Below are positions 15,851-30,283 of a stretch of DNA of 34,052 bases, one piece after another. The position numbers and the translations under genes were made by a program. Within the stretch, counting starts at the first letter, position 1. Every line of letters starts with the position of its first letter. The notes beneath the pieces are model-generated. The model searched no databases, was not told the origin of the DNA, and saw only the letters and a list, made by a program, of their open reading frames with translations. The DNA comes from Alphaproteobacteria bacterium (GTDB lineage Bacteria; Pseudomonadota; Alphaproteobacteria; Rs-D84). The stretch lies in assembly GCA_017617915.1 (NCBI GenBank), contig JAFZVH010000058.1:1-34052 (forward strand), given 5' to 3'.

Positions 15851-15880
15851 ATGCATCAAAGGTGGGAACGGAAATATCGT

Positions 15881-18800
15881 ATGAAGAAAAAGAAGCAAAC
15901 TTCCATACATCGCAAGTTTTGGCGGTTTTTCTGGCCAATTATTGGTCTGGGCCTGATTGGCGGCGCACTGTTTTGGATGGCGATGGATGCTAAAAACGCT
16001 GTGCGATTCGATGCGTATGTATCTAATCCAACGCACGCGCACTTTTCTGATGACAATTCTGCTGTATTATACGAAAACATACCTGATGTGAACAACAATC
16101 GCAATATTGTGCCCGCATCTGGCGTTCAGATATCTTACGAAGGCGCATCTGGTGTAAATGCACCCGCATTCAATATGAATAATTCTGGTGCAAGCCTTGC
16201 GCAAAATATCAAAATTCGTCCCGCTGTGCGTGGGACATGGACAATGACAACGCCACACACAATCCGCTTTGCGCCCGAACAAAATTGGCCTGCGAATACT
16301 AAATTTGAAATAAAAATCGCCGACAAATTATTTGCACCTGACGCGCGTCCCAATACAAAAACAGTATCTTTTACAACCGCGCCTATTTCGGCTCATACTG
16401 ACATTTTCAATGTTTATCCTGTATCTGGGAATGATAAGTCTGTGGTTGGTGTTGCGGTTGTGTCTTTTAACTATCCTGTATCCGCCAAAGATTTTGACGA
16501 CAAGGTTTCAATGCGACTGGATGGCAAGAACCTGAACTTTAACGTAAAGTTCGACCGATATATGCGAACTGCAATAATTCAAACCGACCCCATTAGAATT
16601 ACCGATAAAACCCAGACTTTGCGTTTTAAATTGAATCGTGTACCTGATTCGGATAACAAATCACGCACAGAAAAAATCACTGCAAAAACAATCATAAATC
16701 CAGAAGATGCATTTTTCAAAATCTTGGATATCGCAAGCATCAGTGCCGATGACAAAGACGGTAATCCGCGCCAGATGGTATTGGTTGAACTGTCTGCGAC
16801 CGCCAAAAATAAAATAGATTGGAATAAATACATAAGTGCATATCTGTTACCACTGCACGCGTCTGATAATGAATCGGACGAATCGCACGCGTGGGGTACC
16901 GATGAAGTCACACCAGAAATAATCAAAAAATCACAAAAACTGAACCTTGCGTTATCCGAATTTGCAAATCCCGGGGGCACTTACCAGTATGCCTTTGCCT
17001 ATGAAGTATCTGATACTTTGCCACGTTATATATATATAGACATAAAATCTGGCATTAAATCAGAAAATGGTTTCATATCACAAAACGGTCTAAACCGCGT
17101 GATAAATGTTGCCTATCCAGAACAAAGTGTCAAAATCGCCGGCAATGGCGCACTGCTATCTTTGGCGGGTGACCAAACACTGGGGATTGTTGCACGCGGT
17201 GGCGTAAAAACCGCATACATAAATCTGTACAAAATAGAATCACGCGAAATAAACCACCTTATTACACAAACATATAACTTGTTTTCTGGGGTAAACTTCC
17301 GCGCTCCTTGGACATTTGATGCATACGATATGGCCGTTGTATTTCGAAAAAAGATTCCTTTTTCAAACACTGCGAAGAATCACGTCAATTATGCATCACT
17401 GAACTTGGGCGAATATATGGACCGCACATATCAAGACCAAACTGGCATCTTTGTCATCAAAACTGGCGCAACAGAATCAGATGCAGAATACAGTGACGCA
17501 CGACTTATCTTGCTAACAGATTTGGGTATTATACGCAAAATCAACTTGGACAACAGTTCGTCGGTATTCGTGTCACAAATATCTTCGGGCGCGCCCGCCG
17601 CAGATACGGACATAACTGTTTTAGGGCGCAATGGTCAACCAATTTGGGCGGGTGTCACAGATTCTGACGGACGTGCAGACATTCCGCGCTTTGCCTATGA
17701 CGAATATAAAAATGAAAAAGAACCAGTGGCAATTGTCGCGCGTCATGATTCTGATGTTTCGTTTATTCCATACTATGCAGACGCGGCACAAACAGATGAA
17801 TATTCTAAATTTGATGTTGGTGGAATTTATTCTTCATTTACAACACCTCTAATGGCCTTTGTGTTTTCTGACCGCGGAATATATCGTGGCGGCGAAACAG
17901 TCACAATTGGCGCGATTGTTGAAAACAAAACTTTTACCAGCGTAGCGGACACACCTATCAAGGTTGAAATCACAGATCCGCGTGGTCGAACAGTGCTGGA
18001 TAAAAAAATCTCGCTTGGTGCCAATGGTATGTTTGACATAAATTATAAACTTATGACCAGTGCGCCACTTGGCGAATACAGCGTTATGGTCTATACCGTC
18101 AACAAACGTGGTCATATTCAAGATTCAATCGGCAGCACAAGTTTTTCTGTACAAGAATTTGTGCCCGACACAATGAAACTTACAGCAAACTTGGACAATG
18201 CTAACCCAGACGGATGGATTGGTTCGAATAATCTAATGATAAACGTCGCATTAAATAACTTGTACGGCACACCTGCGACAAATCGTCGTGTGAACGCAAC
18301 TGCGACACTGCGTATGTCGGATTTTCATTTTACCCAGTACCCAGATTATACATTTACACCAAACACCAACAGCGTATCAGGTAAGCAAATTAGTCAGAAT
18401 CTTGAAACCTTTACCACAGATACCAACGAATCCAGAACAAACGAAAACGGCAACTCACAACTAAATATAACTTTTGACCGCGAAATACCTGTTGGTACTT
18501 ATATGCTGACGGTGCGAGTCAACGGCTTTGACGGCAGCGATGGCAAGGCTGTTCAAACGGCGATAAGTTCGCGTGTGTCAAATCTTGATTATTTGGTGGG
18601 ATACAAAACGAGTTCTAATCTGGATTATATAAATCGCAACGACGTCAAGACTATTAAATTCTTGGCCATAGACAGCTATGCTTTACCAACTGAATTATCT
18701 GATTTAACCCTGCGTTTAGTGCGTCGGGAAAATTTGATAAGTTTGGTCAAAGATACGAATAACCAGTATAAATATCAAACCGTTTCGCGCAATACGGTTG

Positions 18801-21601
18801 TCAAAGAAGAAGTTTTTGCGATTGGGCGAGATGGAACCGAAATAAAGTTAGATACTGCAAATGGTGGCACATATTATCTTCAGGTGACGGACAAGGCGGG
18901 AAATATCCTAGCAAATCTTGAATACTTTGTTGCCGCAGATGAAAATTTGGATTTAACCGCAAATAATAATGCAGAATTAAAGGTGAAACTTGACGCAACA
19001 GAATATAAACCTGGCGACACAATAAATATTGGAATTATCGCACCATATACAGGCACTGGACTAATTACCATTGAACGCGACAAAGTTTATGCACATAAAT
19101 GGTTCGTTGCCAAAACCACATCTTCAACCCAGCAAATTGTATTACCCGCAGATTTTGAAGGCACTGGTTATATAAATGTTTCCTTTGTTCGCGATATTGC
19201 AAGTCGTGACATATTCACCACACCTTATACATACGCGGTGGCACCATTTACAACAAAATTAGATAATCGCAAGATTGGTGCAACACTAACCGTTCCAGAA
19301 ATCATCCGCGACAATAAACTAAAAATAGAATACACCACAAATCAAGACGCCGCGTCCATGATATTTGCGGTCAACACTGGAATTTTGCAGGTCGCCAAGT
19401 ATAAAATTCCAAATCCAATAAAATACTTTTTCCAAAAGGCGGCTTTACAGGTTGAAACAACCCAGATTTTATCTCTGCTGTTGCCTGAATACAAGATATT
19501 GCGCGAAGTTGCCAAAACTGGTGGTGGTGATTTCACAGATGAAGCAACCGGTTTGGATTCGCCTTTAACCAACCCATTTGCGCGCAATAATTTGCCATCT
19601 GTTGCCTTTGCGTCGGGTATCATAAAAACCACTGCAAATGAAACCAAAGAAATAACTTTTGATATTCCGGAATATTTTAATGGCGAAATAAGTGTTTTCG
19701 CCGTTGCCGCAAATGTTGGCGCGATTGGCGGTGCAAATGCAACAACCAAAATTCAATCACCCGTTGTAATATCTGTATCTGCCCCCACATTTGTTGCCCC
19801 AAATGATAATTTTGTTGTGAATACGATTATATCTAACCTTGCACCAAAATCTGGCGACAACGCAACTGTCACTGCAACCGCCGATACCAAGGGCGCGCTG
19901 TTATCGCTACCAGATACCACCATCACAATGCCTTTGCCAGAAAACACAGAAAAACTGTGGACAATAAATGTTACCGCAGGTGCGAATATTGGCCCAGGTG
20001 ATATAGATGTATCCGCCAAATTACTGGGCGCCGATGGCGGACAAATCTTGAACCGCAAAACAAATGCAAGTTTGTCTGTGCGACCAACTACAACCAAACA
20101 AACAGAAATTAAAACAAATGTGTTAAATGCACCAAGCATACAACTGCGCAATCTGACCAACGATATGTTCACAGAAAAACAAACGCGCAATTTATTCATC
20201 GCCAAAACACCTGCGATATTTGCGCGCCCATTGGTTATGTATCTTGAAAATTATGAATATGATTGTACCGAACAACTGGTATCCCGCACATTGCCCTATG
20301 TATTGCTGGCGGACAACAAAATGATTGGAACAACTTATTCAAATTCCAGCGATAAAATATCAAAGACTGTTCAGGTTTTGATGAATCGGCAAAACCCAGA
20401 CGGTTCATTTGGCGAATGGGCGACCAGCACCAGATATACCGATGATATGAGCGATGCGCGCACCGCCTATCTGACCGCGTACGTAATGAACTTTTTAAGT
20501 CTTGCGCGCCAAAACGGATTCAGTGTACCCCAATCTGTATTCGCACGTGGCATCGATTACTTGCGCGAATTTGCGGGCCAGCCAACAACCAATTTTGATA
20601 CCGCTTTGGCAAAAGCCTTGGCGATATACACTCTGACCCAAAATGACTATGTCACAACAAGTTATATTGACGCACTGCAAGAATATGCTAAGCAAAATAT
20701 AAAAAATTGGGAATCTACTATCATAGGTCCGTATATCGCCGCGTCTTATAAAATGCTGAAACAAATCGATAAAGGTGCCGATTTGATTTCGCGTTATCGT
20801 ATTGGGCAGACGACCAAGCACACCAATACATTCAACAATTCTGTTGCAAATGACGCCCAGTATACGATGCTTGCGCGCAGATATTTCAATACAAATGACA
20901 CCAAGGGTCTTAAAATTATTCAAGACTATATAAACGCAGGTCTGTATGATTCCTTTACCGCGGCGGCGATTGTTATGGCAATGGCAACAGAACAAGATAA
21001 CAATTCGGCAACGCTGGATGATATCAGTGTCTTGACAAACGATGACAGACAGTTAAAAGGCGACACCACCCCAGAATTGGTCGCAATTACAGTTCCAAAC
21101 GATGTGACAAAATTACGCATAAATTGCCCAAAGTGTGACAAATCGAACACATTGTTTGCCGCATTTGTCCAACAAGGTTTCCCTAAAACCGCCCTGCCCG
21201 CATCGAACGGCATTGAAATTTCGCGTATATATTATGACCAAAGCGGCAAAGAAATTGAAACTGGGGAAATCGGAGAAATTGTCGATGTCAAAATTGTTGC
21301 GCGCACTCGCGGGGGCACCGACAAAATAGATAACGCAGTAATATCAGACCTACTGCCTGGCGGATTTATACCATTGGCAGACAGTTTAACTGGTGACCGA
21401 GAATTCAGCGAAATCCACGAAGACAGAATCTTGATATATACCGCACTGTCGCGCGAACCCGCTGTCTTTACTTATCGCGCACAACTTTCTGCGGCAGGTA
21501 CATTCGCAGTGCCGGCAATATATGCATCTGACATGTATAATGCTGCACTGAATGCAACCGGCGAATCTGGAACCTTTACAGTATCAAATGAAGCGAAATA
21601 A
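15881..21601 (+). CDS. yfhM: bacterial alpha-2-macroglobulin, membrane-anchored
   Basis: A 1906-aa periplasmic protease trap. The start at 15881 (MKKKKQTSIHRKFW) is supported by the promoter position. One N-terminal membrane helix (about residues 17-36, IIGLGLIGGALFWMAM) anchors it; no lipobox is present, unlike the E. coli lipoprotein. Tandem MG domains follow, including the MG signature FSDRGIYRGGETVTI. A macroglobulin core domain follows (IIKTTANETKEITFDIPE then VVISVSAPTFVAPND). The thioester motif CTEQ (Cys1462) keeps the Cys-x-Glu-Gln needed to crosslink an attacking protease. An alpha-toroid domain (RQNPDGSFGEW) and a receptor-binding-like end complete it. It overlaps pbpC by 14 bases, matching the known yfhM-pbpC pairing. 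Confidence 0.95.
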   Translation: MKKKKQTSIHRKFWRFFWPIIGLGLIGGALFWMAMDAKNAVRFDAYVSNPTHAHFSDDNSAVLYENIPDVNNNRNIVPASGVQISYEGASGVNAPAFNMNNSGASLAQNIKIRPAVRGTWTMTTPHTIRFAPEQNWPANTKFEIKIADKLFAPDARPNTKTVSFTTAPISAHTDIFNVYPVSGNDKSVVGVAVVSFNYPVSAKDFDDKVSMRLDGKNLNFNVKFDRYMRTAIIQTDPIRITDKTQTLRFKLNRVPDSDNKSRTEKITAKTIINPEDAFFKILDIASISADDKDGNPRQMVLVELSATAKNKIDWNKYISAYLLPLHASDNESDESHAWGTDEVTPEIIKKSQKLNLALSEFANPGGTYQYAFAYEVSDTLPRYIYIDIKSGIKSENGFISQNGLNRVINVAYPEQSVKIAGNGALLSLAGDQTLGIVARGGVKTAYINLYKIESREINHLITQTYNLFSGVNFRAPWTFDAYDMAVVFRKKIPFSNTAKNHVNYASLNLGEYMDRTYQDQTGIFVIKTGATESDAEYSDARLILLTDLGIIRKINLDNSSSVFVSQISSGAPAADTDITVLGRNGQPIWAGVTDSDGRADIPRFAYDEYKNEKEPVAIVARHDSDVSFIPYYADAAQTDEYSKFDVGGIYSSFTTPLMAFVFSDRGIYRGGETVTIGAIVENKTFTSVADTPIKVEITDPRGRTVLDKKISLGANGMFDINYKLMTSAPLGEYSVMVYTVNKRGHIQDSIGSTSFSVQEFVPDTMKLTANLDNANPDGWIGSNNLMINVALNNLYGTPATNRRVNATATLRMSDFHFTQYPDYTFTPNTNSVSGKQISQNLETFTTDTNESRTNENGNSQLNITFDREIPVGTYMLTVRVNGFDGSDGKAVQTAISSRVSNLDYLVGYKTSSNLDYINRNDVKTIKFLAIDSYALPTELSDLTLRLVRRENLISLVKDTNNQYKYQTVSRNTVVKEEVFAIGRDGTEIKLDTANGGTYYLQVTDKAGNILANLEYFVAADENLDLTANNNAELKVKLDATEYKPGDTINIGIIAPYTGTGLITIERDKVYAHKWFVAKTTSSTQQIVLPADFEGTGYINVSFVRDIASRDIFTTPYTYAVAPFTTKLDNRKIGATLTVPEIIRDNKLKIEYTTNQDAASMIFAVNTGILQVAKYKIPNPIKYFFQKAALQVETTQILSLLLPEYKILREVAKTGGGDFTDEATGLDSPLTNPFARNNLPSVAFASGIIKTTANETKEITFDIPEYFNGEISVFAVAANVGAIGGANATTKIQSPVVISVSAPTFVAPNDNFVVNTIISNLAPKSGDNATVTATADTKGALLSLPDTTITMPLPENTEKLWTINVTAGANIGPGDIDVSAKLLGADGGQILNRKTNASLSVRPTTTKQTEIKTNVLNAPSIQLRNLTNDMFTEKQTRNLFIAKTPAIFARPLVMYLENYEYDCTEQLVSRTLPYVLLADNKMIGTTYSNSSDKISKTVQVLMNRQNPDGSFGEWATSTRYTDDMSDARTAYLTAYVMNFLSLARQNGFSVPQSVFARGIDYLREFAGQPTTNFDTALAKALAIYTLTQNDYVTTSYIDALQEYAKQNIKNWESTIIGPYIAASYKMLKQIDKGADLISRYRIGQTTKHTNTFNNSVANDAQYTMLARRYFNTNDTKGLKIIQDYINAGLYDSFTAAAIVMAMATEQDNNSATLDDISVLTNDDRQLKGDTTPELVAITVPNDVTKLRINCPKCDKSNTLFAAFVQQGFPKTALPASNGIEISRIYYDQSGKEIETGEIGEIVDVKIVARTRGGTDKIDNAVISDLLPGGFIPLADSLTGDREFSEIHEDRILIYTALSREPAVFTYRAQLSAAGTFAVPAIYASDMYNAALNATGESGTFTVSNEAK

Positions 21602-23936
21602 ATTTCTTAAATTTGGTTTAATACTGGGTGTTATTGTCGTTATCTGGGCGATTCTCAGATTCATATTTGTTGCGCCACTGTTACAGGATATTTCTTTTTC
21701 ACGCGCATATTATGACCGCAATGGCCAGTTGTTGCGAATAACCCTGACCGACGATGACAAGTACAGAATTTTTACGCCGCTATCTGAAATCAGTCCGCAC
21801 ATAATCAACGCAGTTATTTTATACGAAGACAAACACTTTTATCATCACTTTGGCATCAACCCTGTTTCAATGTTGCGTGCCGCGCGACAATATTTCAGGG
21901 GCGACACGCATCCTGTTGGCGCATCAACAATTACTATGCAGGTTGCACGTCTGATATATGACATAAACAGCAAAACAACATTAGGCAAACTGAAACAAAT
22001 TGCTGCAGCAATGTACATTGACTTGTTTCATTCAAAATCAGAAATTATCGAAGCTTATTTTAACCTTGCGCCGTATGGAGGCAATATTGAAGGCATAGGC
22101 GCAGCATCAAAAATATATTTTGATAAAACCGCAGATAACTTGACCAAAATAGAATCTATTACATTGGCAACTGTGCCGCAAAACCCGACCAAGCGTGGTC
22201 TAAACACAAGCCGAGGAATCAAAAACATAGAAAATATGCGACACAACTTGGCTGCGCGGTGGGTGGCGGAAAACCCGACAGACCAAGATTTAATCACACT
22301 GGCAAAAATGCCACTGCAGGTACGCGCGCCCGCCGACCTGCCCTTTTTGGCGCCACACTTTGTTGACAATATGAACACACAAAAAATTGACGGACATCGC
22401 CAACAAATTATAACCACGCTTGATTTTAATCTTCAGAAAAAATTAGAACGCGCGTTGCGCGATGAAATATCTGGTCGCAAGAAAACAGGTGTCACAAATG
22501 CCGCCGCCGTTTTGTTAAATTATAAAACAATGGAGGTTTTAGCATACATTGGCTCTGGGGATTATTTTAATCGCAATATCTATGGCGAAAACGACGGTGT
22601 CCGCGCGCGCCGCAGCCCCGGTTCAACATTAAAGCCCTTGATTTATGCCACCGCCATAGATAACGGACTAATCCATGGGTTCAGTTTACTGCGCGACACG
22701 CCGGTAAGTTTTGGTATTTACGCCCCAGAAAATTCCGACAATGAATTTTTTGGCCCAATTTTGGCGCGTGATGCGCTGACGCGTTCGCGCAATATTCCTG
22801 CGATAAATTTACTGCGGCAAATTGGAACAAAAAAGTTTTATAAAATATTACAGCAATCAGGTGTATCAAATTTACAACCCCCAGAACACTATGGCGTATC
22901 GGTTGCACTGGGCGGTGCCGAAGTATCAATGTTAGAATTGGCGGATATATATGCGACCATGGCAAATCTTGGCACGCGTAAAAAACTTAAATTTTACTTA
23001 GTCGAAGCCCCAACAACAATAAACTCTGTGCTTTCGCCCGAGGCTTTCTTCCTTACGCTTGATATACTTGGGCGCAATGTAGCCCCAACAAAAAAAATAC
23101 CCTTTACCCGCGGGACAACAAACACAATCAAACACTATTGGAAAACAGGAACATCGTCATCATATCGTGATGCGTGGACTGCGGGTATTTTTGGCGATAT
23201 GGTTTTGGTTGTTTGGGTCGGAAACTTTGATGGCACGCCGAACAACGCATTCAGTGGCGCACGCACTGCGGCACCGATATATTTTTCCTTGGCACACACT
23301 GTACAAAAGTATATGGCAGAAAATGGCGCACCCATTCAAAACAATGACTTTTTGCGTGAAGATATGAATATAACCAAGGTAGAAATGTGCGAAATTGGTG
23401 GCGATATTGCGGGACCGTATTGTCCAAAAAAGACATGGGGCTATTTTATACCTGGTAAATCGCCAATCGCCCAAAACAAAATTCATCGGGCTGTCGCAAT
23501 TGACAACAAAACAAATCTGCGCGCGTGCAATGCCGACCCAAAGACAACCCATATGGCGGTGTATGAATTTTGGGATGGTCAGTATCTGGATTTGTTTCAG
23601 CGCGCGGGTATTAAACGCAAGATTGCGCCAAAATTTTTGCCTGAATGCGATATAAATAACCTGCCGGACCTGCAGCCCGCCCCAATCATAGCATCCCCAA
23701 TGGCAGATTCAAAAATTGTTATCACATCTGATATGGATGTTGAACCTGTTGGATTTATGGCATTCGGCGCAGATCAAAATACTAAACTGATGTGGTTTTT
23801 AGATGATAAAACATTGGGCAGCACAAAAAACGGTGAAACACTAGAATACCGTGTGCCAATGGGCGAACATATATTACGCACAGTTGATACAACCGGCGCC
23901 GCCACAGAAATCAAATTTAGTGTTGTTGGCGGATAA
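21588..23936 (+). CDS. pbpC: penicillin-binding protein 1C
   Basis: A 782-aa bifunctional peptidoglycan synthase. I start at ATG 21588 (MKRNKFLKFGLILGVIVV), which gives a signal-anchor helix; it lies inside the last codons of the macroglobulin gene. The glycosyltransferase 51 domain carries ILYEDKHFYHHFGINP (catalytic Glu) and GASTITMQVARL. The transpeptidase domain has STLK (Ser346, Lys349), SRN and KTGTSS (from Lys519). A C-terminal PBP1C-specific domain (about residues 700-782) is present. All catalytic motifs are intact. It is thought to repair peptidoglycan where an outer-membrane breach exposes the wall, while the macroglobulin neutralises incoming proteases. Confidence 0.95.
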   Translation: MKRNKFLKFGLILGVIVVIWAILRFIFVAPLLQDISFSRAYYDRNGQLLRITLTDDDKYRIFTPLSEISPHIINAVILYEDKHFYHHFGINPVSMLRAARQYFRGDTHPVGASTITMQVARLIYDINSKTTLGKLKQIAAAMYIDLFHSKSEIIEAYFNLAPYGGNIEGIGAASKIYFDKTADNLTKIESITLATVPQNPTKRGLNTSRGIKNIENMRHNLAARWVAENPTDQDLITLAKMPLQVRAPADLPFLAPHFVDNMNTQKIDGHRQQIITTLDFNLQKKLERALRDEISGRKKTGVTNAAAVLLNYKTMEVLAYIGSGDYFNRNIYGENDGVRARRSPGSTLKPLIYATAIDNGLIHGFSLLRDTPVSFGIYAPENSDNEFFGPILARDALTRSRNIPAINLLRQIGTKKFYKILQQSGVSNLQPPEHYGVSVALGGAEVSMLELADIYATMANLGTRKKLKFYLVEAPTTINSVLSPEAFFLTLDILGRNVAPTKKIPFTRGTTNTIKHYWKTGTSSSYRDAWTAGIFGDMVLVVWVGNFDGTPNNAFSGARTAAPIYFSLAHTVQKYMAENGAPIQNNDFLREDMNITKVEMCEIGGDIAGPYCPKKTWGYFIPGKSPIAQNKIHRAVAIDNKTNLRACNADPKTTHMAVYEFWDGQYLDLFQRAGIKRKIAPKFLPECDINNLPDLQPAPIIASPMADSKIVITSDMDVEPVGFMAFGADQNTKLMWFLDDKTLGSTKNGETLEYRVPMGEHILRTVDTTGAATEIKFSVVGG

Positions 23937-24200: not shown

Positions 24201-25064
24201 TTATTGCAATCCGAACTTGTTGATATAGTTGAAAGAAATGCCTATCATCAAATTACTGCCATAGTGTTCGGCATCGCGCGCCTTGGCACGGCGATATTGC
24301 ACATATGGTCCCATAGTGAACGCCCCCCACAGGTTTGTATCCATACGCGCCGCCACACTTAAATCGCGTTCCAAATCTGTGCCAACATAGGTTGAATAGT
24401 TCAAATATTCACGATAATAACCGTCCGTTGATAACTTGACACCTTCGCGAATCAAATATTCCAAGCGCCATCCTGTTTCAACTGCAAACTTACTAACTTG
24501 ATCATGGCCATATGTAAAATCATATTCGTACATACCTGCAACATACAGCGATTTAATTATATCAGAATCAAACAGCGAAATACCTGCCGACCCACGCGTC
24601 ACTTTCAATCGATTATCTGTACCTTTGGTGGGCTCAAATTCTGTTTCGTACGCCGCACGCACAGTTGGCCCCAGTTTAAATGAATCAAAATCCCAACACG
24701 CATAAGATAAATTACTGCTGAACAAAATCTTGTCAGCATTTTCGTTGACGGTTTTTGGTGCATTATATGGATACAGTGTTGTTTTACCATATTCCATCAG
24801 CAGCCCATTATCCCAATTAAACCTGTTTTTTGTGTATTCTAAAACAGTATCAAAAGCGCCCTTGATATAATCTTGTCCATCTGTATTCAACGCTGTAATC
24901 GGGGAATTAGTATATTCATCTACGTGCCTCAATTGCGTTTTTGACAAATCAAGCCCTATTCTGCGAATATCAAGAACCAATTCCTTTTTTTCCAAAACAA
25001 CATCATCCGCCAACGATGCAAACGGCGCAGCGATTGCGCAACACAAAACCAACAGTTTTTTCAT
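24201..25064 (-). CDS. outer-membrane beta-barrel-like protein, unknown
   Basis: A 287-aa exported protein with a signal peptide (MKKLLVLCCAIAAPFASLA, cleavage before DDVVL). The mature sequence is dominated by alternating aromatic and polar residues with recurrent short strands, for example AAYETEFEP, YVAGMYEYDFTYG, FAVETGWRLEYL and YVQYRRAKARD. Its end MIGISFNYINKFGLQ fits a barrel strand. There are few or no cysteines after the signal. I cannot name the family; a porin-like or structural outer-membrane protein is the most likely reading. AGAGG lies 5-6 nt before the ATG and nine bases separate it from the upstream gene, so it is the last gene of a three-gene operon. Confidence 0.7.
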   Translation of the reverse strand: MKKLLVLCCAIAAPFASLADDVVLEKKELVLDIRRIGLDLSKTQLRHVDEYTNSPITALNTDGQDYIKGAFDTVLEYTKNRFNWDNGLLMEYGKTTLYPYNAPKTVNENADKILFSSNLSYACWDFDSFKLGPTVRAAYETEFEPTKGTDNRLKVTRGSAGISLFDSDIIKSLYVAGMYEYDFTYGHDQVSKFAVETGWRLEYLIREGVKLSTDGYYREYLNYSTYVGTDLERDLSVAARMDTNLWGAFTMGPYVQYRRAKARDAEHYGSNLMIGISFNYINKFGLQ

Positions 25065-25073
25065 TTTTACCTC

Positions 25074-25691
25074 TTACTTAAAAATATGTAAATTTCCATC
25101 TATACCACGATACCGCCAACCATTTTCGCGCGCCCAAATAGTGAACGCTGCACGTTTAGTGGTTGGCACCACAAAGACCATTTGATTTCCTTCCATATAC
25201 ACATTATCTAAATCTATACCACTATCTGTTGCTGTGCGACGTATTTGTATCCAATCGGCCAATCTGTCCTTTGCATCAACAATCAATAAAAATTTATCGC
25301 CTGCGTCATCCGTTGCAATCAGCCAATTTTGAATGCTGTTATCGGCAAGCCAATTTTTAGCAGCCTGACGATTCAGTGTCATTGAAATATTTGCAGAATA
25401 AGTCGTATCAGATTGACGTTCACCACTGATACTGGAGCTGGCAATCAAATTAGTTAAAACAGATGCTTTTTCCGCCATAACCTGTGTATGCAACGCCTCG
25501 GCATCTGCATATTGCTCAAGAACCTCGGAAATAATTTGGCGACGCGCCTCATCAAACGCCATTTTTTTTGCATTTGCCGCAGTATCACTGGTCACATTCA
25601 CAGATGCCGCGCCAACTAACTCGGCCGCCCACGCGCCATGAATAACCAGCCCTAAAAAACCAAACATAAAAAGATACTTTGCCAGTTTCAT
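25074..25691 (-). CDS. exported protein with a FlgT-N-like / DUF2066-like N-terminal pattern
   Basis: A 205-aa protein starting MKLAKYLFMFGFLGLVIHGAWA, a signal peptide; an ATG three codons upstream (25700) is an equally possible start. The mature N-terminus reads VGAASVNVTSDTAANAKKMA and continues into AFDEARRQIISEVLEQYA. This resembles periplasmic domains in which a short strand is followed by a helix rich in Ala and Arg (FlgT N-terminal and DUF2066 types), but I cannot confirm homology. A mixed alpha/beta C-terminal part follows (FLLIVDAKDRLADWIQIRR, VYMEGNQMVFVVPT). No cysteine is obvious in the mature chain. It sits between two putative beta-barrels, 6-15 bases after the upstream gene, so it may be a periplasmic partner for them. 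Confidence 0.65.
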   Translation of the reverse strand: MKLAKYLFMFGFLGLVIHGAWAAELVGAASVNVTSDTAANAKKMAFDEARRQIISEVLEQYADAEALHTQVMAEKASVLTNLIASSSISGERQSDTTYSANISMTLNRQAAKNWLADNSIQNWLIATDDAGDKFLLIVDAKDRLADWIQIRRTATDSGIDLDNVYMEGNQMVFVVPTTKRAAFTIWARENGWRYRGIDGNLHIFK

Positions 25692-25706
25692 ATAACACAT
25701 ACCAAA

Positions 25707-27203
25707 TTAAAATCTTACCTGCAACCCAACACGAATGCCCATAGATTTATAAATAGACTCTATTTCCCCATCCACCTTGGACACCCAACCAGAATCCTGC
25801 ATCGCCTTGATTGTTTTGGCATTGTCATCATTTTCTAACATATAGGCTTCTGTATAGCCTGCAGCAATATACTGCGCCAACAATGCGTCATAAATTCCCA
25901 TATAATAACCACTGTTCAAATATGTGTTTGCTTCACCACCAGACAAAGAATAGTAATCAAAAGTGAATCCAAGCGATAAAGAAATACTTTCTGACAACGC
26001 CGTTAAATAATTTGCGCCAAAACCTAAATGCCACGCATCGCCAAAACTGCCTTTGTCTTCTACGCTCTTGGGATGTTGCCAATCAACACGATATGGTTGG
26101 TCGCCTTGGGAATTATACATAGGCAAACCGAATTCAAGTCGTGCATTAAAACTGTTGTACGCGTTGATATCATAATTCAAATCCAGCGCTAAATACGGTC
26201 CCATCCATGTTGTTTCATAAGAATGACTGACCCCTGGCAAGACAAATTTATATGTTCCTTCGGTGCTAATACCTGTGGCACCTGGGGTAATTTGTATAAA
26301 ACCCTGGTCATCATAGGTTGGTTCCCACAAAACCTGTTGTGCATCACCATATTGCAGAATAATAATAGGGTTGCATTGTGTTTCATTACTGCCACTGACC
26401 ACTTCACAATAACCTGTATCAACGGTCATCCCATAATCTTTTGATGTTTCAAGTTTATATTTCAAATACCTGTATCCAATCGAAGGTGTTATGCGCGCGC
26501 CACCAAGTTTAAACATATTCGTTAAACCGAAACCCGCATGAAAGCCCAACATATCACCGCCTTCACTGGTGCCAATAGACAAAGAATTCCCAATTTGACT
26601 GCCTATGAACTGGTCACCAATACCGTCGTCATTTGTATCATCCCACCATTCTGTGATTAAATAACCACCGTTTGTGATATCATCATCAATCATAGTAGAA
26701 TCGCCAAATTGCATACCGTACTTAAAGCCCGCATCTATTTGCATCGGCGTACTGCTGCCGAACTTATATGCGGCATCTACACTGAACACATTCCAACGAA
26801 CATTATCATAGTGCAACTTGCTGCCTGCGGAATTCATATCAAAATTCCAATTTGCAAATTCGTGCGAAATACCCGCATTTACGAATAATCCTTGTTGCGT
26901 TGCAGTCGCATTGGCATTGCGAGCCTGAGTCTGTTGCGCCTGCGTCTGGGTCGCGACCGCCGACGTATCGCGATTATATGCCTGATACTGACGACCAACA
27001 TATACATTGACATTTGGGGACACAGTCCGTTTAGTTTGCTGGTTGCTGTTACCCGATTGCTGACGCGTTGTATAATTCTGTCTGGAATAATTCTGTTGTG
27101 GCGAACGATATCCGCCAGTGTAGTAGGTGCCCGCCGAATACGCAATATCCGGCAAAAATGCCATCAGGACAACATATACTAAGCACATATTTTTCATATT
27201 CAT
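25707..27203 (-). CDS. large outer-membrane beta-barrel protein, possibly omptin-like
   Basis: A 498-aa protein. Several nearby ATGs compete; I choose 27203 because GGAG lies five bases upstream. A signal peptide (residues about 3-24, ending IAYSA) precedes a Gln/Asn/Thr-rich linker (residues about 30-110). A long beta-barrel region follows (FVNAGISHEFANWNFDM, ITPSIGYRYLKYKLE, TTWMGPYLALDLNYD, SISLSLGFTFDYYSLSG), ending in the classic terminal strand GIRVGLQVRF with phenylalanine last. The GYRYLKYK and TTWMGPYLAL strands recall omptin proteases. However, the Asp-x-His pair of the omptin active site is not evident, so protease activity is doubtful. It leads a three-gene operon that ends at 24099. 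Confidence 0.72.
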   Translation of the reverse strand: MNMKNMCLVYVVLMAFLPDIAYSAGTYYTGGYRSPQQNYSRQNYTTRQQSGNSNQQTKRTVSPNVNVYVGRQYQAYNRDTSAVATQTQAQQTQARNANATATQQGLFVNAGISHEFANWNFDMNSAGSKLHYDNVRWNVFSVDAAYKFGSSTPMQIDAGFKYGMQFGDSTMIDDDITNGGYLITEWWDDTNDDGIGDQFIGSQIGNSLSIGTSEGGDMLGFHAGFGLTNMFKLGGARITPSIGYRYLKYKLETSKDYGMTVDTGYCEVVSGSNETQCNPIIILQYGDAQQVLWEPTYDDQGFIQITPGATGISTEGTYKFVLPGVSHSYETTWMGPYLALDLNYDINAYNSFNARLEFGLPMYNSQGDQPYRVDWQHPKSVEDKGSFGDAWHLGFGANYLTALSESISLSLGFTFDYYSLSGGEANTYLNSGYYMGIYDALLAQYIAAGYTEAYMLENDDNAKTIKAMQDSGWVSKVDGEIESIYKSMGIRVGLQVRF

Positions 27204-27229
27204 CATTACTCCAATCCAATTCTTGCTGT

Positions 27230-27235
27230 ATTGTA
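27230..27235 (-). promoter_or_regulatory. -10 box for the exported-protein operon
   Basis: TACAAT on the minus strand, about 27 nt from the ATG at 27203. The -35 region is only a T run (opposite the A run at 27250-27258), so the assignment is tentative. Confidence 0.35.
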
Positions 27236-27246
27236 TCACAAAAAGA

Positions 27247-27299: not shown

Positions 27300-27384
27300 G
27301 CGGTTATGGCGGAATTGGTAGACGCTCAGCACTAAGGATGCTGTGGAGAAATCCGTGGGGGTTCAAGTCCCCCTAACCGCACCA
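27300..27384 (+). tRNA. tRNA-Leu (anticodon AAG)
   Basis: An 85-nt class II tRNA with CCA encoded (27382-27384). The acceptor GCGGTTA (27300-27306) pairs with TAACCGC (27374-27380). The D-arm carries GGTAGAC. The anticodon stem CAGCA/TGCTG encloses the loop CTAAGGA, giving anticodon AAG. The long variable arm GGA-GAAA-TCC and the T-arm GGGGG-TTCAAGT-CCCCC follow. Class II shape and GCGG acceptor agree with leucine. Adenosine at position 34 is unusual in bacteria, where CUU/CUC leucine codons are normally read by a GAG anticodon; it would need conversion to inosine. No integrase or duplicated tRNA end is visible nearby. Confidence 0.95.
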
Positions 27385-27454: not shown

Positions 27455-30283
27455 ATGAAAATCTTTAAAGTCATTTTTGGCGTATGCCTTGGTGTGCTTG
27501 CTCTTTACAGTTCGCACGCCACGACTGCTGATGATATGGTGCGCGCCGCCACACGTTCTGGTACACCCAATATAACATCTGGGACGGTACGTGGCGGTCA
27601 ATCTGGCACGCAAAAGGCAACCGCCCAAAGAACGACCGGTCCGCGTGATACAACCCGCGGCACAAATGCCACCGCGCAAAAGGCAACTGACGCACGCGCG
27701 GTGGCGAAATCGCGCCCAACCACAACACAAAATGTAATTCAACGCAGTGGCGCATCAGACAACATTGTGACGCGCACAAATGCACAAAAATCTGCTACAA
27801 GAACATTAGCAACGCGCAATGCCGCGCGCACCGCCACACGTCCAACAACCCTACGCGGTGCGGCAACTGCCGCCGCCACGCGTAAGGCGCGCACCGCTGC
27901 ACGCGCCGCAACATCCGAATCGGGCATTCGCACAAGTCAATACCAAAAATGTCGGGAAATATACTATGAATGCATGGACGAGTTCTGCGCAAACAAAGAT
28001 GCAAATCTGCGCCGTTGTGCGTGTTCCAAGCGTGCCACAGAATTCGACAGTGTAAAACAACAAATATCGCAAGTTGAAGACAAAATGCTGGACTTTAATC
28101 AACGTCTGTTGATGGTTAATATGGATGCCAAGGATGTTGATGCCATTAACACTGCGACCGCGGGCGAAGATGCATACTATGCCACCAAGGATAAAACCAA
28201 ATCAAAACAAACACTGGATGACATTTCAAAAAAATTGAACGGCGCATTTGATGATACCGGCGCTACGGGTTCTGGTCTGTCTGCAATATCATTATCATTA
28301 AATGCGGATACTGCATTTGATTCTGTAAATTCGCTGTATGGTGCAAACACTGTGACAAAAACTGGTGTTGCACTTTACAATGCAGCCATACCAATATGCC
28401 GCGAAATGGCGATGGAGATTTGCACAGACGAAGAATTTTCCTTGGCTGTCAGTGGTTATCAAATGCAAATCGAACAAGATTGCAACACCGTATCCAAGGC
28501 CTATCAATCAAAAGTTGACCAAACGCGCACCAAAGTCTTTGAAAGCGGCGCACTGTTGGATATTTCGCGTCTTGATGCATATCAAACACGTAATTCCGAT
28601 GATATTTTAACATGTAAAAAGAAGATGTTGGATTTGCTGTACGATAATGCAGTGTGCGGGACAAATATGGAAAAATGCCTTGATATCACAGGGCGGTACA
28701 TTGACCCATCAACAGGCACCGCGTTTTTGACACCAAATTTATCAGATTTAGAAACGCTTATTGCGCGACCTGAAAACGGGCAAAGTTGGGTTAGCGTAAA
28801 TTCTGGAAACGCGTTTTTAACTTATTTAAAGGACAAGAAAACCTACTTGGAATCCGCCACACAGAACTGTCAAGATATTGCCGACAAAGTTTGGGATGCA
28901 TTTATTGAAGATGCACTTGCACAAATAAAATTAGCCCAAGGCGCAAAACTGCAAGAAATTCGTCAAGCGTGCACTACGCTGACCACCGAATGTCTAACTA
29001 ACGCATCTGATTCTATAACTGATTTTGATGCACGCGCATTATCGATATTTGGGGTTGCCGCAACCAAAACGGCTCTGGCAATGTGTGCCGACGTTCAAAC
29101 TGCGTGTGACGCATTATTGGGGGCCGAAGGCGACACATCTTGGGCAACAGGTATCTCGGACGCAAACACAATCAAAACCTATGAATCTATTATTTCAAGT
29201 TGCACATTGGTTGGGCAAAACTGCATTATACAGGCATGCCGTTCGATTTCTGGCAACTTTGGTCTGTGCGAAGATGTAGAATTTGCAGCAAATCGTCACG
29301 CCATATTGGAACGCACTTCTTGCTGGAATGAGGTACTGAACTGCGTTGCATCTGCAGGCGAGAATTCAATAATGTCTGCAATAAATTTACTTGGAAAATC
29401 TGCAAGCGGATCACATAAATATGCATTCTATGACGATATATATGGCACCAATACCCCAGCGATTATATATGACATTTGTGCCAACGAATGTGCCGACGGG
29501 GTCGATGATGCTGTATGTGCAAAATGCCGTATTTCCGAACGAATTTGGGGTAATTGCCAATATAACCCTTCATCAACAGAAAATGACCAGAACCAGATTT
29601 TAACTTCCACAAATGCGTCAACATTACTGATGTGGTTCGCCAAAAACACTCATACCGAAGACAACGTTAAAAACTGTTTGAATGTGCGTTGTACCGCGGG
29701 AAATATGCATCTGTCCAGTACCGGTCAAATGATTTGCATCGCCGACAGTGATATGGGTGATGTCACAGATGATGGGCGCTATTGTCCTGTACCACCAAAT
29801 GTTCAAATGTCCCTTACCAACACCGCCGACTCACAGACAAATTGTTGCTTTGATGGTTCCGGCAGTGAGTATATTCCAAATACAGGTGCAACTAACAGTG
29901 GCATATGCTGTGAAAATGGGCATACCGTACAACTTGATAACAAACCTATCTGCGTTCCAACCGATGTCACTAATATCAAGGCAGTATTAACACGCGCCAG
30001 CGGAAACACGCAAATTATATGTATTGGCGCAAATCAGGTCACTGGTGGTGGTGCCGCGGAAACAGACTACCCAAATGGCAGGCAAGTTCGTTGCAATGGC
30101 ACCTTTATCGAAGTCCAAAACGGGAACAACTATTTTGAACCAACAAAGAGTGGTTCTAGCACAGGCGGAACACGTTATACTCCTGCAATGTACTATTACG
30201 ACACTAACGCGACAACGCCAACGACATTATCGCCCACCAACAATATAATCAACTATTTTGTCGGATATAACATATCACAATAA
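27455..30283 (+). CDS. giant cysteine-rich secreted protein, unknown function
   Basis: A 942-aa protein with a signal peptide (MKIFKVIFGVCLGVLALYSSHA). Residues about 25-150 form a basic, low-complexity Thr/Ala/Arg region (ARTAARAATSES and similar), likely disordered. From about residue 155 it becomes cysteine-rich; I count about 38 cysteines in the mature chain. Many occur in spaced pairs such as CREIYYECMDEFC, CACSK, CTLVGQNCIIQAC and CAKC. A helical segment with a predicted coiled coil (VKQQISQVEDKMLDFNQRL) and a Gly/Thr/Asn-rich C-terminal third with CC pairs (NCCFDG, ICCENG) follow. It resembles no family I can name. Export plus regular cysteine pairs suggests a disulphide-stabilised envelope or surface protein. 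It is preceded by tRNA-Leu and followed convergently by pth. Confidence 0.75.
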   Translation: MKIFKVIFGVCLGVLALYSSHATTADDMVRAATRSGTPNITSGTVRGGQSGTQKATAQRTTGPRDTTRGTNATAQKATDARAVAKSRPTTTQNVIQRSGASDNIVTRTNAQKSATRTLATRNAARTATRPTTLRGAATAAATRKARTAARAATSESGIRTSQYQKCREIYYECMDEFCANKDANLRRCACSKRATEFDSVKQQISQVEDKMLDFNQRLLMVNMDAKDVDAINTATAGEDAYYATKDKTKSKQTLDDISKKLNGAFDDTGATGSGLSAISLSLNADTAFDSVNSLYGANTVTKTGVALYNAAIPICREMAMEICTDEEFSLAVSGYQMQIEQDCNTVSKAYQSKVDQTRTKVFESGALLDISRLDAYQTRNSDDILTCKKKMLDLLYDNAVCGTNMEKCLDITGRYIDPSTGTAFLTPNLSDLETLIARPENGQSWVSVNSGNAFLTYLKDKKTYLESATQNCQDIADKVWDAFIEDALAQIKLAQGAKLQEIRQACTTLTTECLTNASDSITDFDARALSIFGVAATKTALAMCADVQTACDALLGAEGDTSWATGISDANTIKTYESIISSCTLVGQNCIIQACRSISGNFGLCEDVEFAANRHAILERTSCWNEVLNCVASAGENSIMSAINLLGKSASGSHKYAFYDDIYGTNTPAIIYDICANECADGVDDAVCAKCRISERIWGNCQYNPSSTENDQNQILTSTNASTLLMWFAKNTHTEDNVKNCLNVRCTAGNMHLSSTGQMICIADSDMGDVTDDGRYCPVPPNVQMSLTNTADSQTNCCFDGSGSEYIPNTGATNSGICCENGHTVQLDNKPICVPTDVTNIKAVLTRASGNTQIICIGANQVTGGGAAETDYPNGRQVRCNGTFIEVQNGNNYFEPTKSGSSTGGTRYTPAMYYYDTNATTPTTLSPTNNIINYFVGYNISQ

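Follow-up and report, generated by a model that had tools for sequence, protein, structure and literature searches.

Within the window, by which we mean the whole stretch of 34,052 nucleotides that was analysed, positions 27455-30283 of the forward strand read as a complete open reading frame of 942 codons with an ATG start, exactly where the initial annotation had placed it. The encoded protein contains 39 cysteines, C11 in the signal peptide and 38 within residues 166-880, in agreement with the earlier estimate of about 38. Cysteine accounts for 4.9% of residues 161-942; in a complete relative (G043) the figure is 1.1% for proteins that are not exported and 1.7% for those that are. The exported-protein census of G043 used a simple, untrained gene caller with a hydropathy rule and includes 5 hits out of 32 that look false by sequence. 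Judged by eye, residues 1-23 are predicted to form a Sec signal peptide without a lipobox (MKIFKVIFGVCLGVLALYSSHA, followed by T; 27455..27523, +), and the protein is thus predicted to be exported. A signal-like start is also present in 20/20 aligned orthologues, which accords with the previous description of the protein as secreted.

The signal peptide is followed by a basic, low-complexity linker (residues 24-160; 27524..27934, +), recognised from its composition and from the enrichment of short words over shuffled sequences. Its 137 residues include 31 T, 28 A and 19 R and carry a net charge of +18, and the remainder of the protein beyond the linker is acidic (net charge -35); the basic, Thr/Ala/Arg-rich start noted earlier is therefore correct in composition, and its length of 125 residues had been underestimated. 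Across 20 orthologues the linker varies between 104 and 187 residues, and many arginines are kept throughout. Recurring words follow the patterns [VI][VIQ][SPAQ]R and SR[AGST], as in NVVSRT. The first pattern occurs 22 times in the linkers of paralogues (2.4 in shuffles) and 20 times in those of the 20 orthologues (1.9 in shuffles), contrasts that are inflated by homology among the linkers; word repetition is also visible inside single linkers. A binding or tethering role would suit such a segment.

Residues 161-735 (27935..29659, +) constitute a helical, cysteine-stapled core that includes two helices of about 50 residues each, as modelled by AlphaFold2 with 81 orthologues. Near its start lies the signature C166-x6-C173-MDEF-C178-x9-C188-x-C190 (27950..28024, +), which is shared with paralogues in the same genome and with relatives in four further genomes. 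Its four-cysteine spacing of 6-4-9 (C166-C173-C178-C188) is repeated once, at C583-x6-C590-x4-C595-x9-C605 (29201..29269, +), where all four cysteines are invariant in 80 orthologues, and a list of cysteine spacings finds C-x6-C six times in the protein. The paired spacing to which the initial annotation drew attention is real and, given how well the cysteines are kept in 80 orthologues, goes far beyond chance. The remaining residues, 736-942 (29660..30280, +), form a C-terminal beta domain, delimited by AlphaFold2 modelling of that part alone and by conservation.

No Pfam family (E up to 1) and no NCBIfam or PHROGs entry matched the protein, and there was no credible PDB sequence match for the single protein, for a profile of 81 orthologues or for a profile of seven paralogues; the orthologues have no Pfam family in common. 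The autotransporter translocator beta-barrel (PF03797) was not matched, and the C-terminus is instead a cysteine-stapled beta domain of about 200 residues. For the mature protein with 81 sequences, AlphaFold2 reached a mean pLDDT of 76.6 and a pTM of 0.48, a model of moderate confidence that is nearly all helix up to about residue 735 and beta afterwards; residues 736-942 alone gave a pLDDT of 85.7 and a pTM of 0.78. Compared with the PDB, the moderately confident helical core gave a best Foldseek E of 0.45 and a best VIA Z of 7.0 with an rmsd of 39, followed by single-helix matches, and the C-terminal domain gave a best Foldseek E of 1.2 and a best VIA Z of 3.6 over 75 residues. No Foldseek match had E < 0.08 (mature protein against PDB and BFVD; C-terminal domain against PDB), and VIA re-examination yielded generic helix or sheet matches only. 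The earlier remark that no familiar domain is visible therefore holds across these sequence and fold searches. Mean identity to orthologues is 0.46-0.71, depending on region, in residues 161-640, falls to 0.39 in residues 641-735 and to 0.22 in residues 736-942. The C-terminal domain evolves fast around fixed cysteines, a variation for which relaxed constraint, and not partner contact, might be the cause.

The surroundings of the gene are conserved among relatives. A tRNA-Leu (AAG) gene identified by ARAGORN (27300..27384, +) separates it from a divergent neighbour encoding an exported protein of 510 residues (25707..27239, -; synteny in 71/80 loci), which, judging by its sequence, is probably an outer-membrane beta-barrel and had no match in the family search. 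Beyond it lie genes for exported proteins of 208 residues (25074..25700, -; 66/80) and 287 residues (24201..25064, -; 65/80), the latter a probable outer-membrane protein judging by its sequence. On the other side stands the convergent housekeeping gene pth (peptidyl-tRNA hydrolase, Pfam PF01195; 30297..30824, -; 63/80). The order around the orthologues runs with the genes for the 287-, 208- and 510-residue proteins on one side and pth, a gene for a small outer-membrane protein and polA on the other; each neighbour is kept in 61-71 of the 80 loci, and many of the remaining loci end early. In many relatives an extra exported, cysteine-rich gene lies between the orthologue and pth (among others, L039:8912-10279, L075:10598-11899, L116:9686-10678 and L113:8987-11026), and it is absent in the species of the window. 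GCC2/GCC3 and Ephrin_rec_like repeats are recognised in some of these extra genes, with two of seven exceeding the Pfam cut-off, and several terminate in a motif like FCDxxGCF. Elsewhere in the window, positions 15851-23936 (+) encode a bacterial alpha-2-macroglobulin of 1916 residues with a thioester-like CTEQ motif, adjoining a PbpC-type penicillin-binding protein; this pairing is ordinary and is kept despite the reduced genome.

That genome comprises 725,819 bp (0.73 Mb) in 58 contigs and belongs to Candidatus Enterousia in the GTDB order Rs-D84; genomes of the same genus span 0.6-1.1 Mb. Members of Rs-D84 are described as obligate symbionts or parasites that lack respiration, steps of glycolysis and most biosynthesis (PMC12306168). 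They are widespread in animal guts with DNA of about 1 Mb or less, the route of their metabolite supply is unsolved, and they carry many hypothetical proteins that possibly serve contact with other cells (PMC12306168).

All 23 genomes of the same genus matched in a first search, and all but one had a close orthologue, some of them split or cut by contig ends. Among GTDB genomes, at least 80 contain an orthologue; they derive from the guts of ruminants, chickens, horses, rabbits and termites, and several are named Candidatus Enterousia. Relatives within the genome of the window are 20-31% identical to the 942-residue protein and all share C-x6-CMDxxC-x9-CxC; an alignment of seven of these paralogues shows 16 invariant cysteines together with M, D, S, G, L, Y and N positions. 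The signature of the wider family, C-x6-CMDxxC-x(8-11)-CxC followed by conserved core cysteines, is fitted by our protein at residues 166-190 and recurs in almost every member identified in four more Rs-D84 genomes. Thirty-eight members from five genomes can be aligned, with six cysteine columns occupied in 38/38. A signal peptide and an Arg-rich linker typically, but not strictly, precede the signature, and the linker is short or weak in a few members.

A search with a paralogue profile places the family in 200/201 Rs-D84 genomes and 22/23 genera, with typically 9-13 profile matches per genome, corresponding to about 10-14 fixed paralogues, in the family to which Enterousia itself belongs and weaker or partial matches in most genomes of five other Rs-D84 families. 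One genome (G029, family f2) is the only one of the 201 without a detectable member, despite a completeness of 96%. By contrast, the family is absent from the 380 other Alphaproteobacteria among 385 sampled across the class, the five matches being Rs-D84, and from the 396 other genomes among 398 searched across the phylum, where the two matches belong to the same genus. Viral contigs and plasmids held no relative of the family, and we rejected a mobile-element origin on that basis. Cysteine-rich exported envelope proteins are already known as a kind, whereas the Rs-D84 CMDxxC family is new to the libraries searched; within the literature searched, no Enterousia or Rs-D84 paper describes it in its title or abstract.

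In a tree built from 38 cores, three Enterousia genomes contribute members that fall into one-to-one orthologous groups, mostly with high support, which implies a fixed set of paralogues rather than a switching repertoire. Eleven motif-bearing members in G043 (chromosome of 1,001,484 bp) amount to about 8,900 codons, or 2.7% of the chromosome. Copies are scattered in the Enterousia genomes studied closely, in contrast to the tandem members found in a termite-gut genome (left part of L111, matches starting at 1, 1214, 3094 and 5986) and in another family of Rs-D84 (L212:2362-9720). G043 also encodes giant exported proteins of 2279 residues with about 180 cysteines (L219:4880-11719, -) and 1390 residues with about 100 cysteines (L222:1853-6025, -). 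A further protein of 413 residues with 22 cysteines and one N-terminal hydrophobic segment (L258:13765-15006, -) looks pilin-like by eye and has no family match.

Conservation of the 38 cysteines averages 98% across 80 orthologues, against 30-70% for most other residue types and 100% for tryptophan. A match to a characterised family and a lack of cysteine conservation were both looked for, and neither was found. Of 81 sequences, 76 have an even number of cysteines in the mature part (28, 36, 38, 40, 42, 44 or 46), and the other five have an odd number. Accessory cysteines also come and go in pairs: at columns 646 and 671, 46 of the 81 sequences have both cysteines, 34 have neither and one is discordant, and four further pairs of accessory columns are likewise gained or lost jointly. 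When the cysteines that follow from the start of the signature are counted in the family members from five genomes, 35 of 38 have an even number, with values from 8 to 48. These counts come from related, non-independent sequences, and the pattern recurs in separate orthologous groups. Since the counts are even and the accessory cysteines change pairwise, the bridges are mostly within the chain, and the pattern speaks against a systematic free thiol, a metal site or a cross-linked sheet. The sequence comparisons thus suggest that the cysteines are almost certainly disulfide-bonded, mostly intrachain, in about 19 bridges, and we hold with high confidence that the protein belongs to this family and carries intrachain disulfides.

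How such bridges are made is a puzzle, as the family implies hundreds of disulfides in an anaerobe that does not respire and in which neither DsbB nor VKOR was recognised. A DSBA-family protein is present in 8/8 genomes tested; in the genome of the window and in one relative, the DsbA-like protein has hydrophobic N-terminal segments, a CPYC motif and a loop with Pro of the kind usual for this fold. Pfam searches of the same eight genomes, in which control profiles were positive, recovered neither DsbB nor VKOR, so of the DsbA/DsbB pair that the initial annotation had proposed to look for, only the first partner was recovered. G043 has only two short membrane proteins that combine several helices with a CxxC motif. 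Each has 169 residues, with CPVC or CPIC directly after the first hydrophobic segment, and a conserved partner gene lies behind the gene of each; one of these pairs precedes a member of the CMDxxC family. Such proteins, which have no Pfam or NCBIfam match, are encoded at L222:17042-17548 (-), L243:14964-15470 (-) and L207:1253-1759 (+), and in the genome of the window at L276:1486-2034 (+). Relatives occur in 18 other small-genome Alphaproteobacteria, in one of which (L278) the operon, read by eye, adds an exported thioredoxin-like protein with CLFC and an ArsR-like regulator gene alongside; the candidate relay was not found in G028, a more distant member of Rs-D84. From their sequences, the membrane protein and its partner are a candidate thiol relay that could run in either direction, and the membrane protein is a possible replacement for DsbB.

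We tentatively favour, as the best explanation of the whole, an order-specific, intrachain-bridged exported protein in which a stapled rod bears a variable head that contacts partner cells; a function in surface contact is likewise plausible, and we hold it with the same reserve. Sec would export the chain, and the membrane-anchored DsbA-like CPYC protein would form roughly 19 bridges within it. A rigid stapled rod (residues 161-735), able to withstand denaturants and the proteases of the gut, would result from the repeated helical C-x6-C segments. The N-terminal tail, which is basic and disordered, may keep the protein at the envelope through its charge, binding LPS or peptidoglycan, or alternatively may tether it to a partner by the repeated [VI][VIQ][SPAQ]R words, and the fast-evolving C-terminal beta domain would face outward and make contact with partner cells or their products. 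That the protein lies at the surface, is tethered by its tail and contacts partners is what we infer; the export signal (read by eye), the family and its restriction to the order, the fixed paralogues, the conserved and paired cysteines and the constant core with its variable head are computational findings. No outer-membrane export signal was identified in the protein, and it may remain periplasmic. Folded proteins could in principle pass through a secretin; secretin and ATPase families are present in 8/8 genomes tested, with a full-length ATPase in seven. R64-like type IVb pilus genes (PilN secretin TIGR02520, PilO, PilP, ATPase and T2SSF) lie at L244:3262-7951 (-), L237:8707-10335 (-) and L270:5695-12038 (-), and VirB4 lies at L244:14319-16733, all in an order of reduced genomes.

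Several other readings deserve weighing, beginning with those that concern the cysteines. The initial annotation had seen in them a hint of a disulphide-linked envelope layer, in which cysteine-rich exported proteins would serve as bricks of a covalent network like that of chlamydial OmcA, OmcB and MOMP. The many exported cysteine-rich paralogues per genome, a basic N-terminus as in OmcB and the rod-like helices of the predicted model would fit such a layer, which we nevertheless consider unlikely: the even counts (76/81 and 35/38) and the joint gain and loss of cysteines within one chain indicate intrachain pairing, and with a PbpC-type peptidoglycan synthase encoded in the window, no OmcB-like need for a peptidoglycan substitute is evident. 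The cysteine-bearing neighbours once suggested as partners, the gene at 2109-2951 and the OmpA linker, show no sequence relationship to the protein and lie some 25 kb from it. Neither is a syntenic partner, and their cysteines hold their positions only in part: the former falls outside the conserved neighbourhood, and the four linker cysteines are not kept in position, the relative examined having two elsewhere. The same even counts and paired changes make it very improbable that the cysteines bind metal or haem or have a redox role in place of structural bridges; no CxxCH haem motif and no ferredoxin-type spacing is present, even if the anaerobic, non-respiring organism and the lack of a detected DsbB or VKOR would suit that idea.

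The main rival to a surface role is a structural or assembly component of the periplasm, either an envelope scaffold or an accessory of the type IVb pilus or a type IV secretion apparatus. The presence of pilN, pilO, pilP, ATPase and T2SSF genes and of VirB4 speaks for it, as does a fixed one-to-one set of paralogues of the sort that machine components would show; however, no family member adjoins the pilus or VirB4 genes in the loci examined, and fast divergence of the kind seen in the C-terminal domain is not typical of machine parts, so that we hold this reading to be fairly unlikely. A secreted effector or toxin-like protein acting on partner cells, with cysteines for stability outside the cell, would suit an exported, stapled protein with a variable C-terminal domain in an organism of dependent lifestyle (PMC12306168). 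We regard it as improbable, as no catalytic or toxin domain was found and one set of orthologues recurs throughout the genomes compared, whereas turnover is usual for effectors. The constant core and variable C-terminus of a large paralogous family could also recall antigenic variation or a switchable adhesin repertoire, an idea that is largely refuted by the tree, in which each paralogue is a one-to-one orthologous group across species, mostly with high support; no cassette array was seen in the closely studied Enterousia genomes, and we give this reading almost no credence.

Returning to the stapled protein that contacts partner cells, a wider and more speculative extension, which we offer with considerable doubt, is that the fixed paralogues, of which there are ten or more, serve as subunits or specialised parts of a single disulfide-stapled surface structure specific to the order, with which the bacteria would dock to partner cells and draw metabolites, and which would be oxidised by an undescribed membrane CxxC protein in place of DsbB. 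Because the family occupies 2-3% of a small genome, forms a fixed set of paralogues across the genus and is absent in the other lineages tested, it is a prime candidate for what enables the lifestyle of Rs-D84. The distribution that the initial annotation had left to be checked, 200/201 Rs-D84 genomes and 0/380 other Alphaproteobacteria, is thus specific to the order.

Three known systems invite comparison. OmcB is described as a cysteine-rich outer envelope protein of Chlamydia (PMC2229832), and the disulfide-dependent chlamydial envelope is reported to be served by DsbA/DsbB (PMC6752827). Like OmcB, our protein is exported, rich in cysteine and basic at its N-terminus, and it comes from an obligate bacterium with a reduced genome and a DsbA-like protein; it differs in having no common sequence family with OmcB, a core predicted to be mainly alpha-helical, cysteines that appear to be bonded within the chain, and a host in which peptidoglycan synthesis is present and DsbB was not found. 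Proteins with Ephrin_rec_like or GCC2-GCC3 repeats (PF07699) are likewise secreted and disulfide-stapled, and a gene of this kind lies directly downstream in many relatives; the 942-residue protein has a predicted helical core and does not match PF07699 at the Pfam cut-off. A different parallel is offered by the twin-CX9C (CHCH) hairpins of the mitochondrial intermembrane space, in which helices are stapled by regularly spaced cysteines during oxidative folding. Pfam CHCH is not matched, the main cysteine spacing in our protein is x6 rather than x9, and nothing indicates common descent; the likeness is one of principle, in that regularly spaced cysteines staple helices in both.
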